From IMG/VR virus record IMGVR_UViG_3300050029_000114, positions 1 through 64,000 of that record: a stretch of DNA of 64,000 bases; one strand, 5' to 3'. A program made the translations under genes and the position numbers. This document shows, piece by piece, positions 36,658 to 39,668 of the stretch. Origin of the DNA: a virus. Numbering within the stretch: the first letter of the stretch is position 1; each line of letters begins with the position of its first letter. The notes beneath the pieces were generated by a model. The model saw nothing but the letters and a program-made list of their open reading frames with translations. It was not told where the DNA came from and did not search any database.

Positions 36658-37806
36658 TCAGGTGCCCTTGTAGTTGAGAACCTGATGCAACGTGTGCTCG
36701 ATCGCGACGAGGTCCGCTTGGTCGGCCATCACCTGGTCGATCGACTTGTATGAATCGGGGTGTTCGTCGAGCAGCGCCTTCGCGTCTCCGTCATTCCACG
36801 CCCGGCCCTTCATCGCTGTCTCTAACGATTCGACGGTCAACGTCTTACGGGCCGCCGATCGGGACATGCGCCGTCCCGCACCATGTGAGCACGACTCGTA
36901 GCTGGCCGGATTCCCGAGCCCGCGGACAATGTAGCTCGACGTGCCCATCGAACCGGGGATCACGCCCTCGTCGCCGGTCCCGGCTTTGATCGCCCCTTTG
37001 CGGGTCAGCCACACGTTCCGGCCGTGGTGGTTCTCCATCTGCGTGAAGTTGTGATGGCAGTTGATGCGGCGTACCTCGTTGCCGACGCCGTGCTCCCGGT
37101 CAACGCCAACGAATCCCCATAGCTGGGTGAGAACGGCATCCATCATCGCGGCGCGGTTCCCTAGCGCGTACCGCTGCGCCCATTGCATGTCGCTGATGTA
37201 GGCGTCGAACTCGTGGGTTCCCTGGACGAGATAGGCAAGGTCGGGGTCGTCTAGCTCGATGAACCATTGGCGCATGAGCCGCTTCGCCCCGTCGATGTGC
37301 TTCTTGGCTAGCTGGTTGCCGATCCCTCTGCTACCGGAGTGGAGAACGACCCACACCCGGTCGCGTTCGTCGAGGCAGACCTCGACGAAATGGTTGCCGC
37401 TGCCCAAGCTGCCATATTGGTTGGCGGCGGTCGCTGCCTCTTTCTGGCTGAAGTGCGCTGGTATCTCGACCCCGCGCGCTGATGCGTGGCCCTTGCCTAC
37501 CCCGGCCGGTACAACCTCGGCGATCCACCCGTGGAGCGGGTCAAGGTTGTCGGGCAGGCCGTCGGCGACTAGGTCCGTCTCGACGGCGATCATGCCGCAG
37601 CCGATATCGACACCGACCGCTGCTGGGACGATCGCTCCTCGTGTCGGGATGACCGATCCGATGGTAGCTCCGATACCGATATGGGCGTCGGGCATGAGGG
37701 CAAGATGCCCGTCAATGAATGGCAGTCGGCTGGCTTTGGCTGCCTGCTCGATCGTGGCGGCCTCGATGTCCGAGCCCCACGCCAGCACGTTACCGATCTT
37801 CTGCAC
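36658..37806 (-). CDS. rtcB: RtcB-type RNA ligase
   Basis: 382 aa from GTG 37806 with AGAAAGGG upstream; this start matches the family N-terminus (a frame to 37971 is open but covers the structured leader). Manganese and catalytic motifs are present: MPDAHIGIGATIG (38-50), VDIGCGM (66-72), GSGNHFVEV (135-143), HSGSRGIGNQ (156-165), CHHNF (250-254), GSMGTSSYIV (285-294) and SCSHGAGR (305-312) with the guanylylated His. It joins 2',3'-cyclic-phosphate or 3'-phosphate ends to 5'-OH ends, typically to repair tRNAs cut by host anticodon nucleases. A phage tRNA gene lies 1.8 kb upstream. Confidence 0.93.
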   Translation of the reverse strand: MQKIGNVLAWGSDIEAATIEQAAKASRLPFIDGHLALMPDAHIGIGATIGSVIPTRGAIVPAAVGVDIGCGMIAVETDLVADGLPDNLDPLHGWIAEVVPAGVGKGHASARGVEIPAHFSQKEAATAANQYGSLGSGNHFVEVCLDERDRVWVVLHSGSRGIGNQLAKKHIDGAKRLMRQWFIELDDPDLAYLVQGTHEFDAYISDMQWAQRYALGNRAAMMDAVLTQLWGFVGVDREHGVGNEVRRINCHHNFTQMENHHGRNVWLTRKGAIKAGTGDEGVIPGSMGTSSYIVRGLGNPASYESCSHGAGRRMSRSAARKTLTVESLETAMKGRAWNDGDAKALLDEHPDSYKSIDQVMADQADLVAIEHTLHQVLNYKGT

Positions 37807-37833
37807 CGTCGCTGCCCTTTCTCTCGATTGGCG

Positions 37834-37969
37834 GGAGCTAGGAGTAGGCGTGTAGAGACGCCTCGTTCTTAGGCCACGGTCTAGTTGTCGAACACAAACC
37901 CGACAGCTACGACTCGCCCGCTCGGTATGCAACCTCCTACTAGGTACCGGACTGTGGCCTCCTAGCTCC
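37834..37969 (-). ncRNA. Structured 5' leader RNA of rtcB
   Basis: On the transcribed strand, GGAGCTAGGAG (37959-37969) pairs perfectly with CTCCTAGCTCC (37834-37844) to close about 115 nt. Inside are GCCAC/GTGGC (37954-37958 with 37873-37877), CGGTA/TACCG (37945-37949 with 37923-37927), TGTCG/CGACA (37901-37905 with 37886-37890, extendable) and AGGCGT/ACGCCT (37858-37863 with 37846-37851). Together they form a multibranched fold with a three-way junction. The closing stem ends about 28 nt before the rtcB start. Not recognised as a known riboswitch; could be regulatory, a substrate of RtcB, or self-cleaving. Confidence 0.65.
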
Positions 37970-37978
37970 ACGCGCCGA

Positions 37979-37993
37979 ACTATAGCGCGCTAG
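37979..37993 (-). promoter_or_regulatory. Promoter site j (CTAGCGCGCTATAGT)
   Basis: -10 TATAGT 37979-37984; the palindrome contains the TAG stop of the upstream glycosyltransferase-like gene. Transcription would begin a few bases before the closing stem of the rtcB leader RNA. Confidence 0.78.
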
Positions 37994-39526: not shown

Positions 39527-39595
39527 CGTGGCTCCTCGCGCTGATAGGGCGGAACTAGCGACGATGCGAGGGGCGCTCGGCCAACTCGACGTTCG

Positions 39596-39668
39596 AGGCG
39601 GAGACGGGACTCGAACCCGTGTCCTCTGGCTTATGAGGCCAACGCGCTACCGACTGCGCCACTCCGCT
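39596..39668 (-). tRNA. tRNA-Met (CAT anticodon)
   Basis: 73-nt cloverleaf without encoded CCA. D arm GCGC-AGTCGGTA-GCGC; anticodon arm TTGGC-CTCATAA-GCCAG; T arm ACGGG-TTCGAGT-CCCGT. Acceptor pairs 2-71 to 7-66 are intact, but position 1-72 is A-C, unpaired. The anticodon stem has three G-C pairs next to the loop (third one C31-G39). CAT could also be tRNA-Ile2 after lysidine modification. Confidence 0.93.

Follow-up and report, generated by a model that had tools for sequence, protein, structure and literature searches.

The tmRNA (RF00023) combines a tRNA-like domain with a long helix that replaces the anticodon stem and leads to a structured insert, and the bacterial Y RNAs (YrlA), structured RNAs with a tRNA-like module, are linked to Ro60 and RtcB operons and are sometimes located beside rtcB. 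Phage T4 encodes two stable RNAs, RNA C and RNA D (species 1 and 2; 119-139 nt), which lie co-oriented at the end of the tRNA array and are annotated as small stable RNAs. Large phage-linked non-coding RNAs include GOLLD and ROOL, with GOLLD found near tRNA arrays (see also PMC12286853), and lambdoid prophages carry genes for the AgvB, AsxR and Pas sRNAs near their Q-to-lysis region (PMC4104026, PMC13192938).

We analysed a 64,000-nt stretch of viral DNA (positions 1 to 64,000 of the IMG/VR record IMGVR_UViG_3300050029_000114; hereafter the window), in which the RNA ligase gene rtcB is preceded by an element that, judged by comparison with its relatives, is one copy of a large phage RNA family. 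The preliminary description had been unable to place this RNA in a known class by eye, and indeed Rfam 15 gave no match to the window element up to E 10 and none to the elements of 27 further loci (14 and 12 loci searched to E 0.5, and CUS-3 to E 1). Rfam gave no match of the element to the Y RNAs or to GOLLD and ROOL, and the latter two are several-fold larger. A likeness to tmRNA is seen only in the tRNA-like members described below, since the window member lacks a domain of this kind; Rfam detected no tmRNA at the elements, ARAGORN and Rfam detected none in the window, and we identified no tag reading frame. AgvB, AsxR and Pas are Hfq-binding, base-pairing RNAs from a locus that resembles that of the lambdoid elements, and Rfam gave no match between the elements and AgvB, AsxR or STnc100. 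RNA C and RNA D are similar to the family in being phage-encoded RNAs co-oriented with a tRNA array, but they lack the UAAGAACGAGGCG...CGCC core and score at best 4.2 bits with our family model (R1, below), which gave no sign of homology. In the literature covered, which lay outside most subscription journals and supplementary lists of candidate RNAs, we found no description of the family, and at the level of title and abstract the motif letters appeared only in 7 papers, all on unrelated topics. The family is apparently undescribed; parts of it could be contained in the remaining papers or candidate lists.

The element lies in an intergenic stretch of ~180 nt flanked by two minus-strand genes (Table 1) and is the only copy in the 86-kb record. 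Its outermost helix, P1, is a perfect 11-bp stem that encloses the other helices; the coordinates in the preliminary description were correct, and the RNA is on the minus strand. Directly upstream of the element is a palindromic repeat, for which a promoter role is inferred and at which a scan for the sigma-70 consensus gave no match. The core of this repeat (CTAGCGCGCTAG, with shared flanks, AACT before it and TGG or GGG after it) occurs 13 times in the record, at positions 1312, 4116, 7177, 20053, 20971, 22925, 27698, 37982, 39007, 45040 and 47954 of the window and at 83135 and 85126 of the record, and is possibly a phage promoter or operator. The sole tRNA gene of the window, a minus-strand tRNA-Met at 39595-39668, is located ~1.6 kb upstream of the element, with none adjacent.

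Table 1. Positions in the window of the conserved RNA element, its parts and the flanking features
Feature	Position	Strand	Support
Whole conserved RNA element, type A	37834..37969	-	R1 match 37833-37970, 77.9 bits, E 6e-18
P1 5' strand, GGAGCUAGGAG	37959..37969	-	8 outer aligned P1 pairs with both-side changes
P1 3' strand, CUCCUAGCUCC	37834..37844	-	Same pair counts as P1 5' strand
P2 base, 5' strand	37954..37958, pairs with 37877-37873	-	Both-side changes in 4/5 pairs
P2 base, 3' strand	37873..37877	-	A1 pair counts
P2 distal domain, type A	37880..37951	-	A1 pair counts; distal domains differ in types B and C
Type A distal helices	37951-37946/37885-37880; 37941-37937/37932-37928; 37913-37910/37890-37887	-	
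Conserved junction and P3 start, UAAGAACGA	37863..37871	-	Exact, with P3, in 67 viral contigs
P3 hairpin AGGCG-UCUCUACA-CGCCU, then A37845	37846..37863	-	Most conserved part of the family
rtcB, RNA ligase, 382 aa, GTG start 37806	36658..37806	-	RtcB Pfam PF01139, E 3e-110
Promoter-like palindromic repeat CTAGCGCGCTAT with TATAGT-like -10	37982..37993	-	13 copies in record

Taken alone, the window sequence provides weak evidence for structure: the z-score for folding of the window element in the sense strand is -1.2, and perfect inverted repeats of 11 bp whose arms are separated by 60-200 nt number 12 in the window versus 4-12 in shuffled sequences. The initial claim that so much complementarity is unlikely by chance finds no support in the single sequence but strong support once the relatives are compared (covariation and the R1 match, below). 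A plus-strand RNA was considered and rejected: although the opposite strand folds with a better z-score (-3.7), G.U cells outnumber A.C cells (27:8 and 92:27), an asymmetry that supports the rtcB-sense (minus) strand.

A local blastn comparison of the leader with 80 viral rtcB loci revealed matches located 3' of rtcB in L004 (37 nt, 95% identity) and L002 (34 nt, 85%), and the piece common to these two and the window, UAAGAACGAGGCG...CGCCUACUCC, was detected in 67 viral-contig stretches, or 71 when the pattern was loosened, and in 15 stretches of bacterial genome contigs, 11 of which were confirmed by the model and the other 4 not. The motif is present, without RNA annotation, in phages of Arthrobacter, Rhodococcus, Microbacterium and Stenotrophomonas, and a BLAST search uncovered an altered junction, GUAAAACG, in the Acinetobacter phages SR and NL; the junction variant in Acinetobacter phages reads GUAAAACGA. 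Relaxing the motif to AACGAGGCGNCGNNACNCGCCTA brought the count to at least 120 stretches. When the 271-nt lambdoid region was compared with 5,426 complete E. coli genomes, 531 gave matches, which in 115 genomes covered 80% or more of the region, and a search with one type B query found no plasmid copies.

The core of the family consists of P1, P2 with an exchangeable distal domain, J2/3 (UAAGAACG), P3 (AGGCG...CGCCU) and J3/1 (A). Stand-alone members fall into three types, A (to which the window element belongs), B and C, which have P1, the P2 base, J2/3, P3 and J3/1 in common and differ in the distal part of P2; the last of the type A distal helices in Table 1 is a conserved GUCG/CGAC helix. 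We compiled alignments A1 (10 sequences), A2 and A3 (42 sequences). In A1, 93.8% of the cells are paired, compared to 80.8% after shuffling and 35-44% when the strands are slid, and both sides have changed in 17 pairs; in A3 the paired fraction is 92.5%, compared to 75.9% after shuffling. Compensatory change in the stems of relatives, proposed at the outset as the way to check the fold, is abundant, with 48 double-change cells in A1 (14.9 when shuffled) and 236 in A3 (86 when shuffled), and it is heavy in P1 and P2.

We also built a covariance model, R1, from 42 relatives with the window sequence left out, and it recovered the window element as a member of the P1-P2-UAAGAACGA-P3 family (Table 1), while R2, whose training included the window element, scores it at 140 bits. 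The invariance of P3 and of the motif bases is partly a product of the search pattern, which required those bases, and the 5' strand of P1 was placed partly by complementarity to its partner strand. These concerns about circularity are eased by the R1 match to an unseen sequence and by the covariation of the inner P1 pairs among more distant members, as R1 finds members in which these pairs have changed together (AGAG/CUCU, GGGG/CCCC, GGUG/CACC). Judged by the independent model match together with the compensatory change in P1 and P2, we take the folded RNA before rtcB to be real. The three-way junction, the multi-helix character and the start near a promoter-like repeat all stand as first described, and the structure is conserved. 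Some of the predicted inner helices differ from a single-sequence fold. An H-type pseudoknot read by eye in type B (GCAUG/CGUGC) was dropped, as CGCGC variants lose the pairing.

Members of the family are closely linked to tRNA genes: 16 of 72 elements have one at a distance of 20 nt or less, compared to 1.4 expected and a maximum of 5 in 2000 simulations, and 86 of the 89 tRNAs within 1 kb of elements are co-oriented with them. The sites are mostly unannotated and intergenic, with differing next genes ~80-435 nt away (REQ2, Kumotta, Damascus, ReT1v-1, CapnMurica and Makai). No gene family is common to most neighbourhoods, and the idea of a constant protein partner was abandoned, the best candidate being found in only 15 of 72. 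This commonest family was named terminase-like by eye, with a representative protein that has no Pfam hit; annotated or Pfam-supported terminases are located just downstream in the Arthrobacter phages Elesar and QuinnAvery.

Among the matches listed, many from proteobacterial and enterococcal phages have a tRNA-like cloverleaf in which the core occupies the site of the anticodon loop. This cloverleaf is made up of an acceptor-like stem (7-18 bp), a D-arm-like hairpin, a linker (UAAUCAG or GAAUCGAG), P1 where the anticodon stem would be, and a T-arm whose loop reads, for example, UUCGAAU, UGCAAAU or UUUGAAU. In lambdoid phages the locus lies between Q and the holin gene, and in an Enterococcus phage between ArpU and terminase. 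These members do not qualify as tRNAs, since the core replaces the 7-nt anticodon loop and the UAAUCAG linker is present, and at the window element neither ARAGORN nor Rfam found a tRNA. An automatic acceptor-stem score separated true from mismatched partners only moderately (at least 7 in 78% versus 32%, and at least 5.6 in 95% versus 85%, of the matches listed), so that the tRNA-likeness is carried by hand-read examples and by the UAAUCAG linker, which occurs in 27 of 46 tRNA-like members versus 0 of 63 strict actinophage-type members among the matches listed. The two contexts are tied together by L255, in which a type C domain with 74-75% identity to stand-alone forms (E ~1e-9) occurs in tRNA-like form. 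R1 reaches many tRNA-like members only via the 22-nt P3 region, and homology there thus consists of core motif and architecture and is less secure than among types A-C.

Further arrangements of the core were encountered. L250, L243, L249 and L311, among the matches listed, are circular permutations in which P2 (8 bp) is open and P1 (5-8 bp) is closed by a linker-containing loop; these four are located directly after tRNA genes or tRNA-like sequence, and their conserved closing loop contains CGACCTGACGCGCAGGGTAATCA. In related phages the same tRNA-like shell also occurs at the same locus with different inserts, at L318:1001-1173 (HK629) and L321:801-1068 (VEsP-1), and in phiFL2A it holds a short remnant. 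Shells with unrelated inserts suggest that a phage tRNA-like RNA contains a site at which cassettes can be exchanged.

The preliminary description had tied the RNA to RtcB, a link that the comparison does not support. A cis-regulatory leader, in which the folded RNA would control translation or transcription of rtcB directly or as an autoregulatory target of RtcB, agrees with the arrangement in the window, where the element is on the same strand, its 3' end 27 nt upstream of the rtcB GTG (37806), with no terminator-like site found between them in our scan. Elsewhere, we found no constant position upstream of rtcB: the gene is close to an element in four cases (the window, L117/L002, L130/L004 and L103), but in L002 and L004 the element is downstream of rtcB, in L103 it sits within an array of 24 tRNAs, and the records of the close rtcB relatives L001, L003, L005 and L006 contain no element at all. 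Elements occur in 3 of 50 rtcB-bearing records, and rtcB in 7 of 48 element-bearing versus 0 of 30 control records, a weak comparison since the control records are shorter. Most copies are far from rtcB and are followed by varying genes, indicating that, as a general rule, the element does not serve to control rtcB. It is unlikely to be an autoregulatory leader of rtcB or a sensor specific to RtcB, and we regard control of rtcB by the folded RNA as improbable.

It is also improbable that the element is a self-cleaving or self-processing ribozyme whose ends would be joined by RtcB into a circular RNA. The invariant unpaired junction would suit such an activity, but its conservation is equally expected of a protein-binding site; several permuted arrangements of one core are known, P1 brings the ends together and rtcB is nearby in a few cases, but Rfam matched no ribozyme, and 41 of the 48 element records lack rtcB, although a host ligase could serve. 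An intron-like or insertion element, that is, a selfish core that first invaded the tRNA genes of phages and afterwards came to exist on its own, would explain why the core occupies the anticodon-loop position of tRNA-like cloverleaves and why the shell in related phages has another insert or only a short remnant. However, with their UAAUCAG linker and long acceptor-like stems the shells are not ordinary tRNAs, we saw no clean empty site, and Rfam identified neither group I nor group II introns at the elements, making this origin the least probable of those considered.

We consider it likely that the element belongs to a phage RNA family of wide distribution and works in trans as a structured RNA in its own right, given a core kept by compensatory change, exchangeable P2 domains, varied outer contexts, co-oriented tRNA linkage and no consistent downstream gene. 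Its frequent place in tRNA clusters or tRNA-like molecules points to a probably independent RNA rather than a control switch for the ligase. In the window, transcription would start at the promoter-like repeat and continue into rtcB, with the element persisting as a folded RNA, and elsewhere the element would be released, in the manner of a tRNA, from tRNA or late-leader transcripts. A more doubtful suggestion, guided by context, is that during infection the RNA might serve as a decoy or inhibitor by binding a host factor whose normal task is to handle tRNA or the ribosome. Such a decoy would account for the presence of the element alongside phage tRNAs and, in some cases, the tRNA-repair ligase RtcB, and it fits a published remark that phages may use their tRNAs and RNA ligases against host defences that involve tRNA turnover (PMC13313380).

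Taken together, the members may, as a tentative reading, constitute a new modular phage RNA class built on one conserved junction core. This core, whose side domains can be exchanged, stands alone in tRNA arrays, takes the place of the anticodon loop in a tRNA-like RNA or is circularly permuted; the class would include phages that infect Actinobacteria, Gammaproteobacteria and Enterococcus, among them prophages found in many E. coli strains, and would act on host tRNA or the translation machinery. That a structured RNA family this broad is missing from Rfam would be a notable gap. The family is also relevant to the long-standing question of what the stable RNAs of phage tRNA clusters, such as T4 RNA C and RNA D, do, and it provides a specific candidate for phage RNAs with an effect on tRNA-targeting defence. 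Since there are members in phages of laboratory hosts (Arthrobacter phages; lambdoid phages, for example CUS-3), their function is directly testable.

Several known RNA models matched in the vicinity of individual elements. Just after the element of Stenotrophomonas phage Jojan60, the Rfam tmRNA model matches 83 nt (L172:4081-4163; 61.8 bits, model ends 1-374), which are probably an ordinary or unusual tRNA. In L089, a short phage locus dense in tRNAs, two of which ARAGORN calls tRNA-Pyl, a sub-threshold tmRNA match overlaps the element region, and at L271:114-192 a Proteo-phage-1 RNA (RF03044) is located slightly upstream of a tRNA-like element.
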